From: Clostridia bacterium
Lineage (GTDB): Bacteria; Bacillota; Sulfobacillia; RBS10-35; JAJYVM01
Direction of reading: 5' to 3'
Length of the DNA stretch: 38,224 nucleotides
Assembly (NCBI GenBank): GCA_027314765.1
Contig: DAHVAF010000242.1
Span: forward strand, 1 to 38,224
The notes below the pieces were generated by a model that saw only the letters and a program-made list of their open reading frames with translations, was not told the DNA's origin and did no database searches. How positions within the stretch are numbered: the first letter of the stretch is position 1; each line of letters opens with the position of its first letter. Made by a program: the position numbers and the translations under genes. Below are positions 15,149-36,428 of the stretch, piece after piece.

Positions 15149-17030
<1,882 letters not shown>

Positions 17031-17041
<11 letters not shown>

Positions 17042-17351
17042 CGGTGCCCGCGTGGTCGTGAACATCTACGGCGAGGAGTGCGCGCTGCGGGGGGATGGAA
17101 CGCCCGAGCGCCTGCGGGGCCTGGCCGCGCTGGTGGACGCCCGCATGCGGGCGGTGGCCGGCCGCACGCCGCAGCTGAGCAAGACGCGGGTGGCCATGCT
17201 GGCGGCGCTGCAACTGGCGGACGAGCTCGGCCGCCTGCAGGAGGCCCTGGTCAGTCGCGTCGAGGTCGAGGAGCGCCCGCTGCCGGCACCCGCGCCCGCC
17301 GCCGCGCCCGTGCCGCCGCCGCGCCGCATCACGCACCGCCCCCGCGCGTGA
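17031..17351 (+). CDS. zapA: cell division protein ZapA
   Basis: MADDGARVVVNIYGEECALRGDGTPERLRGLAALVDARMRAVAGRTPQLSKTRVAMLAALQLADEL: ZapA signature; located before polX. Confidence 0.85.
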
Positions 17352-19637: not shown

Positions 19638-20513
19638 TCAGGCGCGTGTCGGTTTCTGTTGGGGGCGGCGCGTCCAGCGGGCGCGGGCCAGGCGGCGGCA
19701 GGACTCCCAGAGGTTGCCGACGAGCAGGCCGCCCGGAAGGAACCAGAGGGCGTTGAGGCCGAGGAAGGCGGCGCAGCTGCCGGCCGCCACGACGAGGGCG
19801 TACAGGTACTGGTGGCGCGCCTGGGCGGGGGAGGACGGCGGGTCGGTGAGCATGATGGTGGCGAAGAAGAGCAGCATCTGGATGTCGGGGGCGCGGAAGA
19901 TCTCGGCCACCTGGGCGGCGTCGCCGCGGAAGGCCGCGACGGTGTAGACGAGCAGGCTGGCGCCGAGGAAGGTGAGCGCCATGGGGAGCTTACCCACCTT
20001 CGAGGCGACGTAGAGGCCGACGGCGGCGAGGCCCAGGAACCACACGGGGGAGAGGTCGGGCAGGGCGCCCCACCAGCTCTGCTCGCTGTGAAACAGCAGG
20101 GCCGAGGCGACCAGGCCGAAGGCGGCCGGGTTGAAGACGTTGCTCCAACGGGTGCGCAGTGCGTACTTCGAGAGGATCGCCACCACAGCCGTCAGAGCCG
20201 GGATGATCCACGGCTGGCGGGGCGCGAGGATCATGCCGACGATGACGCCGGTGAGAAGGCCCCCGTCGGGGAAGGCCCAGCGGTCGTGCGCCACCCAGCC
20301 CATGACCCAGTCGGCGGCCACAGCCGTCACGGCCGCGATCACGACGGTGGCGAAGGCGGCGCTGCCGTCCCTGACCACGGAGGCCGTGATGGCCAGCAGC
20401 AGGAGGCCGATGAGCGCGATCCCCTTGGGCGCGCGGACGAAGCTGGCGAGGCGCCGGGCCGGCGAGCCCGGGCGCGCGCGGCGGGTTGGGCGCTCCTCGG
20501 TGGAGAGGGTCAC
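19638..20513 (-). CDS. RnfD/NqrB-like multi-pass membrane protein
   Basis: GTG start 20513 overlapping apbE stop; polytopic; WVAHDRWAFPDGGLLTGVIVGMILAP, LRTRWSNVFNPAAFGLVAS resemble the RnfD/NqrB family. Confidence 0.72.
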   Translation of the reverse strand: MTLSTEERPTRRARPGSPARRLASFVRAPKGIALIGLLLLAITASVVRDGSAAFATVVIAAVTAVAADWVMGWVAHDRWAFPDGGLLTGVIVGMILAPRQPWIIPALTAVVAILSKYALRTRWSNVFNPAAFGLVASALLFHSEQSWWGALPDLSPVWFLGLAAVGLYVASKVGKLPMALTFLGASLLVYTVAAFRGDAAQVAEIFRAPDIQMLLFFATIMLTDPPSSPAQARHQYLYALVVAAGSCAAFLGLNALWFLPGGLLVGNLWESCRRLARARWTRRPQQKPTRA

Positions 20514-22147
20514 GATACCCGCCGCCTCCTCAGGCCGGGAGTGGTATGGATCTGCAGGTCGGCGCCGACGATGAGGCCGTCCGCCCGCTGGCGCCGCAGC
20601 CAGCGCAGCCCGGCGGTGGGGCCCAGGACGAACGCCGCCGTGGCCAGGGCGTCCGCCAGCATCGCCGAGGGCGCCAGCACCGTGCAGGCCGTGGCGGCTT
20701 CGGCGGAGCGGGCGCCCCGCGGATCGAGGATGTGGTGGCCGCCGTCGGCGGTTGGGCGGGCATAGTCCCCCGAGGTGCAGACCGCGGCCCCGGAGACCGC
20801 AAGCACGGCGCAGTAGGCGTCGTGAGCGCGGGGGTGGCGGATTCCCACCCGCCACGGCTGGCCGTCGGCGTTGCGGCCGGCGGCGAAGAGGTCGCCACCG
20901 GCCTCGACCAGGAAGTCGGGGTGGGCGGCCGCCAACTCGCGCGCGGCCAGGTCGATCGCCATGCCCTTGGCGACGGCGCCCAGGTCGAGCAGAAGCGGGC
21001 GGCGCAGGGTGACGGCGGACGCCTGGCGGTCAAGCGCGATGTCGCGCCAGGTCGGGTCCGGGGCTGGGGAGGAGGAGGCGGGGAGCGCCTGCTCTCCAGC
21101 CAGGACCTGCGCCACGAGGAGCTGGGCCGCCATGGCGACGGTCTCATCGCCCGAATCGGCACCGGATGTCGCGGCGCGTCGTTCAGCCGCGTGCGGCCGT
21201 TCGCTGCCGGGCGCCCGCCAGGGCTCGGCGCGGCCCGTCCGGTAGTTGCGGACCAGGCCACGCGCCTGCTGACGCGCGCCGATCGTGGGGTCGAAGGCGC
21301 CGCCGCTCCGCTCGGCCACGGCGCACGCGAAGGCCACGGCCTCGAAGAGGAGCGGGCTGACGGACACCGGCTCGCCGGGCGGGCGGTCGGCCAGCCGGCG
21401 CAACTCACTTGTGGGGTCGAAGCGGCTGCACCGCGCCTCGACCTCGGCGAACCAGGCGAAGGCCCGGTCCGCGGCGGCGGCGCAGCCCGGGTGGCCGGAC
21501 GGCGCCACGATGGCGATGGTCACAGGCGTGTCCATGTAGGCGCGGGTCGTGCGGAAGAGCTCGGGCCCGGTGGGCGCACCGCGATCGGCAGGGTCGCCTT
21601 TCGGGTCTGCAGGCTCAGTCCCTGCGGTGACCGGCGACTGCGCGCGGCTGCTGCGGGGGAGGGCATGCTGTCGTGCGCCCCCGTCCGCAGCGGGTGCGTC
21701 AGGCCCGGACGGACCATCGCCAGGGGTGGCGCGAATCGGCCCGCCCCCGTCTCCAGGCATGGTGCGGGGCCCTGCGCCCCTATCGTCAAGGCCAGTGCAG
21801 GTCCCTGCCGGACTGTCGTCCGGGATCACGCGCGGCCGGGCGCCTCCGTGGCCAAGGACGGCGTGGGCTCCTGGCCGATCGTCGCCCGGGATGGCACGCG
21901 CCCGCGCGCTCGCGGGACCGCGGATGGCGTCAGAGGGCGCCGGGTCTTCCCGAGCGATCGCGCGAGGCCGTGCGCCCCTGTCGTCAAGGACGGCGCCAGG
22001 GCGCGCAGGGCCGTCGCCCGGGATGGCAGGCGCCCGGGCGCTCTCCTGGTCAGGGATGGCGCAGGGCTGCGTCTGCCCCAAGCCACGGCTGGGGCCAAGC
22101 CGCACCTCCCCGTCGCCACGGATGGCGCCAGGCCCCTGCGGACGCAT
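20510..22147 (-). CDS. apbE: FAD:protein FMN transferase (ApbE family) with repetitive N-terminal extension
   Basis: Catalytic part from MDTPVTIAIVAPSG: FAWFAEVEARCSRFDPTSELRRL, LDLGAVAKGMAIDLAA, FLVEAGGDLFAAG, HILDPRG. ORF start ATG 22147 overlaps the FMN_bind stop (TGATG). Confidence 0.85.
   Translation of the reverse strand: MRPQGPGAIRGDGEVRLGPSRGLGQTQPCAIPDQESARAPAIPGDGPARPGAVLDDRGARPRAIAREDPAPSDAIRGPASARARAIPGDDRPGAHAVLGHGGARPRVIPDDSPAGTCTGLDDRGAGPRTMPGDGGGPIRATPGDGPSGPDAPAADGGARQHALPRSSRAQSPVTAGTEPADPKGDPADRGAPTGPELFRTTRAYMDTPVTIAIVAPSGHPGCAAAADRAFAWFAEVEARCSRFDPTSELRRLADRPPGEPVSVSPLLFEAVAFACAVAERSGGAFDPTIGARQQARGLVRNYRTGRAEPWRAPGSERPHAAERRAATSGADSGDETVAMAAQLLVAQVLAGEQALPASSSPAPDPTWRDIALDRQASAVTLRRPLLLDLGAVAKGMAIDLAARELAAAHPDFLVEAGGDLFAAGRNADGQPWRVGIRHPRAHDAYCAVLAVSGAAVCTSGDYARPTADGGHHILDPRGARSAEAATACTVLAPSAMLADALATAAFVLGPTAGLRWLRRQRADGLIVGADLQIHTTPGLRRRRVS
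21653..22147 (-). repeat. About 15 degenerate 33-bp (11-aa) tandem repeats at the start of the apbE ORF
   Basis: In frame: MRPQGPGAIRG DGEVRLGPSRG LGQTQPCAIPD QESARAPAIPG DGPARPGAVLD DRGARPRAIAR EDPAPSDAIRG PASARARAIPG DDRPGAHAVLG HGGARPRVIPD DSPAGTCTGLD DRGAGPRTMPG DGGGPIRATPG DGPSGPDAPAA DGGARQHALPR; DNA 'GGATGGC'-like core recurs at about 21855, 21888, 21921, 21954, 21987, 22020, 22053, 22086, 22119. Confidence 0.92.
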
Positions 22148-23016
22148 CAGCCCTTCGCCGCCTGCGCCGCGCCCAGCGCCTGCTGCACTGCGCCCAGGAA
22201 GGCCAGGCTGCTGTCCGTAGCGCCGGAAACGGTGTCGACCTGAAGGCTCTGGGCCGCAAGGACCTCGCCCGGCATCGGCGATACGTCCGCGCAGGGATAG
22301 TGGGTCGTACAGCCCGTAACTACTATGGACGTCATCTTCCCGCCCTTGACGGTCAGCGCGACGGAGACCGAGCCGTGACGGCTCCAGCCGGTGCCGGAGT
22401 ATACACCGTCCTTATACGGACTCGATGCGGCGGCCGCCGCCGCGGCCGGCTGACCCTGCGACGACGGGTTGGTCGCCGGGCTGGTCGTCGCGCCGGCGGC
22501 CTGGCCTTGTCCCTGGGCCTGCGCGCCCGCGCCCGGAGCTGCCTGCTGCCCTGACGCCGGATTCGATCCCGGCGGGCACTGCGTCTGTGTCTGCGCCCGT
22601 GTCGCGGGGAAATAGCCGGCGGACCGCCCACCCTCCTGCTCCCGGTAACGGCCCCGGCGCCCGTCATCGTCGCCACGGCCCTCGCCGTCGCGATAGGTGG
22701 CCACGGGCGGCGGGATCACGATGGCGGAGGTGCCCGACGCTGTGCAATTCGCCGCGCCGGATACGCCGGACACCCCGGGATTGCTTGCAGCGCTTGCGCC
22801 ACCGCCCGTGGCCGCGCCGCCGGCTGTCGCCGGGGCGCCGGTCCCGCTCGTGGCGCCTGTCGCCGCGCTCGGGGACAGCTGGGCGGGCGAGGTCTGCCAC
22901 AGGTCGGCCGCCGCCTGGGTCCGCGCGTAGCCGGCGACGTACACGGCGAAGATCGCGGCCCCGCTGAGGACCATCAGCGTTTTCGACGGCCGGCGCCCTC
23001 CTGCCTGAGTGCCCAC
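22147..23016 (-). CDS. Membrane-anchored FMN_bind domain protein (covalent FMN carrier)
   Basis: N-terminal hydrophobic segment TLMVLSGAAIFAVYVAGY, low-complexity linker, C-terminal FMN_bind with YKDGVYSGTGWSRHGSVSVALTVKGGKMTSIVV and flavinylation motif VSGATDSS. Confidence 0.87.
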   Translation of the reverse strand: MGTQAGGRRPSKTLMVLSGAAIFAVYVAGYARTQAAADLWQTSPAQLSPSAATGATSGTGAPATAGGAATGGGASAASNPGVSGVSGAANCTASGTSAIVIPPPVATYRDGEGRGDDDGRRGRYREQEGGRSAGYFPATRAQTQTQCPPGSNPASGQQAAPGAGAQAQGQGQAAGATTSPATNPSSQGQPAAAAAAASSPYKDGVYSGTGWSRHGSVSVALTVKGGKMTSIVVTGCTTHYPCADVSPMPGEVLAAQSLQVDTVSGATDSSLAFLGAVQQALGAAQAAKG

Positions 23017-32143: not shown

Positions 32144-33466
32144 TTGGGATGGAATCGATGGATCGCGATTGTGACCACGGCGGCCATGGTGGCCCTGCCG
32201 GCGCAGGCGCTGGCCGACGACGGCGGCGGCGGCTCTTCGGCCTCCACCCTCTGCGCCGCCCTCAGCAACGCCACGCCGCAGGCCATCGCCGCCCTTCAGG
32301 GCACCCCGGCCCTCGCGTCGCTGCTCCAGGGCTGCGGCTCCACCACCGGCGGCGACGGCGGGCACGGCAGCGACAGCGGCGGTGGCTCCAGCCTCTGCGG
32401 CGCCCTGAGCAACGCGGCGCCGCAGGCGATCGCCGCGCTGCAGGGCAACCCGTCGCTGGCGGCCATGCTCCAGGGCTGTGGCAATAGCGGGCAGGGTGAG
32501 GCGAGCACTTCGACGACCTGCGCGTCGATGCCGGCCGCGGCCCCGGGCTGCGCCACCGGCGGCAGCCAGTCGTTCAGCGACCTCGGCGGCTACGGATGGG
32601 CGCAGGGCGCCATCGCCCAGCTGGCGCAGATGCAGATCCTGCACGGTATCGGCGGTGGCCGGTTCGACCCGGGCGGGACCCTCACCCGCGCCCAGTTCGC
32701 CGCGCTGCTCCAGCGGGTGTTCAACCTGCAGGCGCCGGCGAGCGGAGGCACCACCTTCGTCGACGTCCCGTCCGGATTCTGGGGCGCCAGCGCCATCGCC
32801 GCCGCGGCGCCGTATATGACGGAATACAAGCTCCCCGGCGGCACGGCCTTCGAGCCTGACCTGCCGGCGACCCGGATCGACGTCGCCGCCAGCATCGGCG
32901 AGATCGAGGTGGCGCAGGGCACCGCGCAGCTTCCCTCCGCGTCGGCCGCCGCCGCGATCTGGGGCGCGTTCAGCGACGGAGGCACCGTGCCGGCCGGCAT
33001 CGCCGAGGCGGCGGCCGTGGCTGTGCAGATGGGGATCATGAAGGGCTACCCGAACGGCGCCTTCGGCGTCGAGGACCCGATCAGCCGCGCCGAGGCGGCG
33101 GTCCTGCTGCAGCGCGTGCTGAGTTCCAGCGAGACGATGGGTGGCGGCGGCAGCTCGACGCCCCAGTCGGGCGCGCCGACCATCACGAGCGTGACGCCCG
33201 CCTCCGGCCTGTCCACCGGCGGCACGCCCATCGTCATTGTGGGCACCGGGTTCGTGAGCGGGGCGACGGTCGCTGTCGGCGGCGCGGCCGCCACCAGCGT
33301 GGTGGTTGTGTCGCCGACGCTGATCACGGCCGTGACCCCGCCGGGGACTGGCACCGCACCCCTGACCGTGACGACATCGGCCGGCGCGAGTCCTGCCGGG
33401 GCCCAGTTCACGTACAGCTGTGTGACCGTCCAGACGGTCAGCGGAGCGGTGTACTGCGGCACCTGA
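32144..33466 (+). CDS. Exported SLH-domain protein with C-terminal IPT/TIG domain
   Basis: Signal peptide WIAIVTTAAMVALPAQALA; SLH motifs GGYGWAQGAIAQLAQMQILHGIGGGRFDPGGTLTRAQFAALLQRVF and IAEAAAVAVQMGIMKGYPNGAFGVEDPISRAEAAVLLQRVL; IPT APTITSVTPASGLSTGGTPIVIVGTGFVSGATVAVGG. Confidence 0.85.
   Translation: MGWNRWIAIVTTAAMVALPAQALADDGGGGSSASTLCAALSNATPQAIAALQGTPALASLLQGCGSTTGGDGGHGSDSGGGSSLCGALSNAAPQAIAALQGNPSLAAMLQGCGNSGQGEASTSTTCASMPAAAPGCATGGSQSFSDLGGYGWAQGAIAQLAQMQILHGIGGGRFDPGGTLTRAQFAALLQRVFNLQAPASGGTTFVDVPSGFWGASAIAAAAPYMTEYKLPGGTAFEPDLPATRIDVAASIGEIEVAQGTAQLPSASAAAAIWGAFSDGGTVPAGIAEAAAVAVQMGIMKGYPNGAFGVEDPISRAEAAVLLQRVLSSSETMGGGGSSTPQSGAPTITSVTPASGLSTGGTPIVIVGTGFVSGATVAVGGAAATSVVVVSPTLITAVTPPGTGTAPLTVTTSAGASPAGAQFTYSCVTVQTVSGAVYCGT
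32249..32482 (+). repeat. Duplicated 30-aa Cys-flanked motif within the SLH protein gene
   Basis: LCAALSNATPQAIAALQGTPALASLLQGCG (32249-32338) and LCGALSNAAPQAIAALQGNPSLAAMLQGCG (32393-32482). Confidence 0.9.
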
Positions 33467-34436: not shown

Positions 34437-35190
34437 GCGCTATGGGCCGCCCGCGACGGTGCTGGTCATCGCGGTCGCCCTGTGGCAGGGCGCCGCGGCC
34501 GCCTTCCGCGTGCCGTCCTGGGTGCTGCCCTCGCCGTCGCTGATCCTCAGCACCCTGTGGACGGACAGGGCGCTCCTGCTGGCCAACACGTGGGTCACCC
34601 TGGAGGAGACGCTGGTCGGCTTCGCCCTGGCGCTGGCGGCGGGCCTTGGCCTCGCGTTTTTGGTGCACTGGTCGCCGTTGGCGGAGCGGGCGCTCTGGCC
34701 GCTGATTGTCGCCTCGCAGACGGTCCCCGTCCCGGCCATCGCGCCCGCCCTGGTCATCTGGCTGGGGTTCGGGCTGGCGCCCAAGGTCGTGGTCGTGGGG
34801 CTGGTCTGCTTCTTTCCCATTGTCGTGGCCACCGTCGACGGCCTGCACGGGGTGGACCACGAGCTCCTGGATGCGCTGCGCACCCTGGGCGCGAGCCCCC
34901 GGCGCCTATTCGCCGAGGTCGAGTGGCCGTCGGCCGTGCCCCAAGTCTTCTCCGGCGTGAAGATCGCCATCACGTTCAGCGTGATCGGCGCCGTGCTGGG
35001 CGAGTGGGTGGGCGCATCGGCCGGACTCGGCTACACGATGATCCGCGCCTCGTCGCAGCTGCTGACGGCGCGTGTCTTCGCGGCCATCGCCGTGCTCTCG
35101 GCGGCGGCCCTGGTGCTGTTCTGGCTGACCGTGGCGCTCGAGCGGCGGGTGCTGCACTGGAAGTTCCGAACGGGAGGTAGCGCGGGATGA
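34429..35190 (+). CDS. ABC transporter permease (ThiX-like)
   Basis: BPD_transp motif EVEWPSAVPQVFSGVKIAITFSVIGAVLGEWVGASAGLGYTMI; overlaps ATPase stop. Confidence 0.9.
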   Translation: MARRYGPPATVLVIAVALWQGAAAAFRVPSWVLPSPSLILSTLWTDRALLLANTWVTLEETLVGFALALAAGLGLAFLVHWSPLAERALWPLIVASQTVPVPAIAPALVIWLGFGLAPKVVVVGLVCFFPIVVATVDGLHGVDHELLDALRTLGASPRRLFAEVEWPSAVPQVFSGVKIAITFSVIGAVLGEWVGASAGLGYTMIRASSQLLTARVFAAIAVLSAAALVLFWLTVALERRVLHWKFRTGGSAG

Positions 35191-36428
35191 TGGCTCGACG
35201 GTGGCTGCGTGGGGCGGCGGGTGGCGCGCTGGAGGCTCCGGACGGGCGGCAGCGGCGGATGGCGGGACGCTGGCCGCGTGGGGCGGCGGGTGGCGCGCTG
35301 GTGGTTCCGGACGGGCGGCAGCGGCGGATGGTGGGCGTCCGCGACGGCCGAGCGGCGGGTGCCGCGGAGGACGTTCCGGACGGGCGGCACCCGCGGATGG
35401 CGGGACGCTGGCTGCGTGGGGCGGCGGTGCTGGTGCTGGGCGCGGTGCTCGCCGCGTGCGGGGGCGCCGCCACGGGAACCTCGGGGACGGCGACGCCGGC
35501 GGCGTCGCCGCGCAAGGTGACGCTCATGCTCGACTGGTACCCCAACGGGGACCACGCCGGCATCTACGCGGCCGCCGCCCAGGGGTTCGATGCCGCCCAG
35601 GGGCTGCACGTCGCCATCCAGGTGCCGGCCGACCCCACCTCGGCCATGAAGGCCGTGGCCGCGGGCAAGGTCGACTTCGCCGTCAGCTATGAGCCCGAGG
35701 TGCTGTTGGCGCGGGCGCAGGGGATCCCGCTCGTGGCGGTCATGGCCATGGTGCAGGAGCCGCTGAACAGCATCATCGCCCTGCCGGGGTCCGGCATCAC
35801 GCGGCCGCGCGACCTGGTGGGCAAGACGGTGGGCACCGACGGGCTGCAGAGCACGCAGGACACGCTCGACACGGTGCTGAAGGCGGACGGGGTGTCGCCG
35901 TCGCAGGTGACGACGGTGGATGTGAGCGAGGACAACGTGGCGGCGCTGCTGTCGCACAAGGTGGACGCCATCATCGGCGCCTACTGGAACTGGGAGGCCG
36001 TCGAGATCCAGCAGAAGGACGGCGGGAAGTATCCCGAGGTGCTGCGCGTCAACCAGTGGGGCGTGCCGACCTACGACGAGCTGGTGATGGTGACCTCGGA
36101 GCAGCTGATCAAGTCGGACCCGGCCCTGGTGCGCAGCTTCGTCGCCGCCCAGGTGGCGGGGGAGCAGTATGCGCAGAAGAACCCGGCCGGGGCGGTGAAG
36201 GACCTGCTGGCGGCCAACAAGGACCTCGATCCGGCCCTCGTCAGCAAGAGCGTGCGGCTGCTGCAGCCCGCCTGGGACGCGCAGGGGCCGACCATCGGCT
36301 ACATGGACCCCGCGCAGTGGACCAAGTACGAGCAGTGGATGGTGGCCCAGGGGCAGCTGAAGGCGCCGGTGAGCGTCGCGCAGGCGATGACGAACCAGTT
36401 CCTGCCGAAGGGCGGCGGCGGGAGCTGA
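35187..36428 (+). CDS. ABC transporter substrate-binding lipoprotein, NMT1/THI5-like (ThiY-like)
   Basis: Lipobox region MAGRWLRGAAVLVLGAVLAACGG; KVTLMLDWYPNGDHAGIYAAAAQGFDAAQGLHVAIQ, VDFAVSYEPEVLLARAQGIPLVAV, GAYWNWEAVEI. SD GGGAGGT precedes ATG 35187; the conventional signal peptide begins at ATG 35397. Confidence 0.9.
   Translation: MMARRWLRGAAGGALEAPDGRQRRMAGRWPRGAAGGALVVPDGRQRRMVGVRDGRAAGAAEDVPDGRHPRMAGRWLRGAAVLVLGAVLAACGGAATGTSGTATPAASPRKVTLMLDWYPNGDHAGIYAAAAQGFDAAQGLHVAIQVPADPTSAMKAVAAGKVDFAVSYEPEVLLARAQGIPLVAVMAMVQEPLNSIIALPGSGITRPRDLVGKTVGTDGLQSTQDTLDTVLKADGVSPSQVTTVDVSEDNVAALLSHKVDAIIGAYWNWEAVEIQQKDGGKYPEVLRVNQWGVPTYDELVMVTSEQLIKSDPALVRSFVAAQVAGEQYAQKNPAGAVKDLLAANKDLDPALVSKSVRLLQPAWDAQGPTIGYMDPAQWTKYEQWMVAQGQLKAPVSVAQAMTNQFLPKGGGGS
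35190..35465 (+). repeat. Four 69-bp (23-aa) tandem units at the 5' end of the lipoprotein gene
   Basis: MARRWLRGAAGGALEAPDGRQRR / MAGRWPRGAAGGALVVPDGRQRR / MVGVRDGRAAGAAEDVPDGRHPR / MAGRWLRGAAVLVLGAVLAACGG beginning at 35190, 35259, 35328, 35397. Confidence 0.92.

Follow-up and report, generated by a model that had tools for sequence, protein, structure and literature searches.

The window (the whole stretch of 38,224 nucleotides analyzed here) contains on its minus strand a tight three-gene operon made of an FMN_bind gene, apbE, and an NqrB/RnfD-like gene, with the following features:

22150..23016 (minus strand): FMN_bind protein (PF04205, E=2e-6), with an N-terminal membrane anchor, a low-complexity linker, and a DTVSGAT flavinylation motif

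22145..22169 (minus strand): start region of apbE, CGGCGCAGGCGGCGAAGGGCTG followed by ATG, with an AAGGG Shine–Dalgarno (SD)-like motif; the sister species shares all 22 nt upstream

21653..22147 (minus strand): 33-bp (11-aa) repeat array of 15 in-register units corresponding to aa 1-165, with a consensus close to D-G/R-x-A-R-P-x-A-I-P-G and alternating 66-bp dimers

21536..21652 (minus strand): non-repetitive rest of the extension, aa 166-204, in which aa 195-204 (ending with FRTTRAY) form the first core β-strand in the AlphaFold model

20510..21535 (minus strand): core of ApbE (FAD:protein FMN transferase), aa 205-545 (PF02424, E=4e-58; PDB 1vrm, E=3e-29)

19638..20513 (minus strand): NqrB/RnfD-like membrane protein encoded by the last of the three operon genes (PF03116, E=8e-13); the start is approximate, with a GTGA overlapping the apbE stop

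The PF02424 match of ApbE is intact (residues 205-521, 197 bits against a gathering cut-off of 25.6), and the core residues DLGAVAKG, HHILDP, and LADALAT are present in the alignment. The domain had previously been placed as beginning near MDTPVTIA; in the AlphaFold model, however, the first core β-strand lies upstream of that point. The complete core with its conserved residues and the adjoining FMN_bind protein with a DxxSGAT motif (a D..[ST]GA[ST] match at aa 260) are shared with the known ApbEs (PF02424; PDB 1VRM, 4XDT, 6NXI). On the other hand, the window ApbE differs from a typical ApbE by a predicted disordered tail of ~190 aa and by the absence of signal peptide and lipobox, an absence common to its clade. 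The lipoprotein signal typical of ApbEs (common, not universal) does not occur in it; in agreement with the preliminary description, the extension carries no signal peptide, with no hydrophobic segment in aa 1-204, and close ApbE homologues of the same clade likewise lack one. In the sections available of a 2025 ApbE review, cytosolic ApbEs are known, the flavinylation of SGAT-type FMN_bind sites by ApbE is established chemistry, and an N-terminal extension of the present kind is not described (PMC12052999). The DTVSGAT site in the adjoining FMN_bind protein is the probable flavinylation target of the window ApbE. The topology is puzzling: the FMN_bind substrate is anchored in the membrane at its N terminus (and is probably outside) and the ApbE clade is signal-less, so that flavinylation may precede export. 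The association of FMN_bind, ApbE, and an NqrB/RnfD-like membrane protein is shared with the NQR/RNF-like flavinylation clusters (PMC8238504, PMC11334425), whereas the C-terminal PF00175 NAD-binding domain, which is defining for those clusters, was not detected by a Pfam search in the window membrane protein, where PF03116 is the only match.

The apbE ORF (minus strand, 22147 to 20510) is 545 aa long. Its ATG overlaps the FMN_bind stop at the junction (TGATG) and opens directly into the array: the first 495 nt (22147-21653) are exactly 15 × 33 bp, indel-free and in frame with ApbE. Both points had been made in the preliminary description and both hold. The self-identity of the array at lags 33, 66, and 99 is 0.50, 0.57, and 0.50 (average 0.525), compared with 0.334±0.012 in codon shuffles (z ~15). 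The identity peaks at lag 66, which indicates a dimeric organization of higher order and growth partly by dimers. The units are only ~50% alike and, for that reason, TRF at default thresholds does not call the array. The repeat is plain in units 1–13 but weak in unit 14 and, in part, in unit 15; the residues that follow (aa 166-204) are non-repetitive. Some pairs of units are closer to each other than neighboring units are (units 4 and 8 are 85% identical), a trace expected from duplication inside the array. There is no motif conserved among the units beyond a loose A-x-P-G-D core. With head-to-tail copies beyond chance, a unit length that is a multiple of three, and a position inside an open gene frame free of stops over 612 nt, the array is an in-frame coding minisatellite, a known phenomenon and an ordinary case in a repeat-prone genus.

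The comparison was made with one other genome of the genus, Bacillota FK2.bin20 (G001/L040), with one genome per species. Its apbE contains an orthologous array in the same phase and with the same 33-bp unit (periodicity z ~6). The 33-bp weight matrix of the window scores it at 61.8 bits in phase 0 (codon shuffles, −63±9), and none of the other sampled stretches of the sister genome reaches that value. The ApbEs of order-mates have no array; in one of them (G007), the operon is the same and apbE starts with MRGARLTRVFMDT, ~33 nt after FMN_bind. Copy number, which had been proposed for comparison across relatives, does vary: 15 in the window, 5–6 in the sister species, and 0 in the order-mates. 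The array is the same in both species of the genus and absent from the order-mates; it therefore grew just behind the start codon, ahead of the first β-strand, and most simply in the ancestor of the genus. Intragenic tandem repeats of Legionella pneumophila (PMC2639597) share with this array a coding unit that is a multiple of three, a copy number varying between relatives, and a low-complexity product. In contrast to that set, the apbE units are old and ~50% diverged, the host is the N-terminus of an enzyme, and the variation is between species and not between strains.

A census of arrays (identity threshold of 0.55, with codon-shuffled controls) yields 22 arrays in the 781 kb sampled of the window's own genome (28/Mb); in the sister genome, the count is 14 over 468 kb (30/Mb). 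The density is 9 arrays/Mb in the order-mate G007 and 29/Mb in the class-mate G052, and the codon-shuffled controls give 0. The periods are mostly multiples of 3. In the sister species, ZapA (L040:7011-7865; L114:5406-6308, plus strand) has four tandem 12-aa units (DEARGRPRASDL, 36 bp) right after its start, which the window ZapA (16899-17351, plus strand) does not have. Repeat arrays also occur in the DNA ahead of the conserved domain of a YqeC protein and of a CRP-type regulator. In G055, which belongs to another family, four 33-bp units (L203:1489-1622, 98% matches) lie ahead of a protein with an HVAGTNGKGS motif, which we take to be FolC-like. With so many similar arrays in the genus, the ApbE array is one instance of a lineage-wide minisatellite process.

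A profile search had been suggested as a check on the units. Searched across the class in a fixed-register HMM, they recover the ApbE orthologue of the genus; the other matches (in G055, G033, G135, and a second G001 locus) are other, unrelated 33-bp minisatellites with different sequences. A dispersed repeat family is rejected: with a 33-bp weight matrix, no second copy occurs in the ~0.78 Mb sampled from the window's genome (the best other stretch scores 7 bits vs. 79–91), and blastn of the array against the whole own genome gives short weak matches only.

The extension itself is hydrophilic, rich in P, G, A, R, and D (mean hydropathy −0.8), and without any TM-like stretch. The AlphaFold pLDDT stays under 50 over almost the whole of residues 1–190; with just two sequences covering these columns, low values are in part to be expected. 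The extension has no match in Pfam, PHROG, PDB, or plasmids, and Pfam finds the ApbE core alone; a known domain or a mobile element as its source is thereby ruled out. So are a secretion or Tat signal (a hydrophobic stretch and RR are both absent) and additional flavinylation sites within the repeats (there is no DxxSGAT motif in the extension). Among the units, pN/pS in the apbE frame is 0.81-0.85, the lowest of the six frames, with one antisense frame at 0.85–0.88. The codon-position bias thus has the direction expected for a coding sequence, but it is weak and not decisive alone; at a pN/pS of ≈0.83, purifying selection among the units is weak. With such a weak bias, profile matches limited to the genus orthologue and unrelated minisatellites, and similar arrays in many genes of the genus, the array is not supported as a special domain or scaffold of ApbE that is constrained at the protein level.

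We are fairly confident that an old in-frame minisatellite has grown in the tolerant N-terminus of ApbE and has left a disordered tail without demonstrable function. Before the two known species of the genus diverged, a 33-bp minisatellite would have arisen in the opening codons of apbE. This site lies behind a start codon coupled in translation to the FMN_bind gene and ahead of the first core β-strand. The array would then have gained and lost whole units, presumably by slippage or unequal exchange, and, with changes by whole 33-bp units, the reading frame would always have been kept; the units would have diverged afterwards through point mutation. The predicted product is an ApbE without signal peptide that is ordinary except for a long, hydrophilic, and disordered tail, for which the main constraints would be reading frame and solubility and which would have no role beyond being tolerated. 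Most likely, the tail is a by-product that ApbE tolerates, the first β-strand beginning only at about residue 195. Two points stand against this: the pN/pS is slightly below one, so that the peptide may be under some constraint, and the retention of the array across a divergence of ~68% identity could reflect a mild benefit.

In an alternative reading, the extension would serve, although disordered, as a tether or scaffold with a function, holding the cytosolic ApbE near a membrane-anchored substrate or partner. Both species of the genus retain the array with its place and frame unchanged; pN/pS is lower in the coding frame than in the other five; and the operon partners are membrane proteins. 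However, a tether agrees poorly with units that are only half identical and with a copy number that differs ~2.5-fold, and the pN/pS is near one and similar to that of an antisense frame. Further, the order-mates with the same operon do without an array, the units have no conserved motif besides the loose core, and similar arrays occur in many unrelated genes. Altogether, we regard a tether as unlikely. Its more specific form, a genus-specific disordered domain built of repeats that would position or regulate the cytosolic ApbE for its FMN_bind partner, with the number of repeats setting the reach, is more doubtful still. We know of no repeat-based tether on a flavin transferase, and the apbE array would be the first known, should a role be shown.

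From the comparison of the two species, the AlphaFold model, and the open frame, the array is very probably translated as an N-terminal extension of ApbE. Otherwise, the start of apbE would be M205 or some other codon inside the ORF, and the repeat would be a non-coding minisatellite in a spacer of ~600 bp. At 73-76% GC, open frames arise by chance, and several other frames are indeed open; also, the Pfam ApbE match begins at M205. Yet no SD-like sequence is found before M205, whereas M1 has the AAGGG motif in a context identical in both species. In the sister apbE, there is no in-frame ATG, GTG, or TTG between M1 and M98 (YMDT of the core), and therefore no alternative start codon. In the seven codons of FRTTRAY, directly upstream of M205, the differences between window and sister species are at third positions only and are synonymous, and the first core β-strand of the AlphaFold model (residues 195–204) is encoded there, ahead of M205. 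In the window, the apbE frame has zero stops in 612 nt and the +2 frame has 7. An untranslated leader, one of the options in the preliminary description, is disfavored by the shared start context, the lack of another sister start before the core, and the synonymous changes in FRTTRAY; a start directly at MDTPVTIA, named there as the alternative, is disfavored by the lack of an SD-like sequence at M205. An untranslated array is, consequently, quite improbable.

A contingency locus, in which the number of units would tune or switch the output of ApbE, would account for 15 copies in one species and 5–6 in the other, but gains or losses of 33 bp leave the frame as it is, and the units have diverged so much that slippage should now be rare, which makes it the least credible of the alternatives.

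The locus, read as an in-frame minisatellite leaving a tolerated tail, clearly illustrates how conserved enzymes of repeat-rich, high-GC Bacillota come to bear long disordered N-terminal tails through such growth. Caution is also in order when metagenomes are annotated: N-terminal extensions of this type need not be domains.

There are other repeats at a distance from the apbE array. The 33-bp period recurs in the class, and 3.2 identical copies of a 33-bp unit are present at G001 L207:1510-1615. In the window, an array with a 69-bp period (35142-35533) lies ahead of an NMT1/THI5-like binding protein, and another with a 48-bp period (32240-32483) lies ahead of SLH/TIG domains. Within the ApbE core, an internal loop of the window protein (aa ~310-365) contains a low-complexity insertion that is, by alignment, genus-specific. 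The sister ApbE (L040:2328-3845) has in the same loop (aa ~210-300) a different low-complexity insert, AGP-rich and 36-bp periodic, and the ApbE of G052 (L033) carries a repeat insert in that loop as well.
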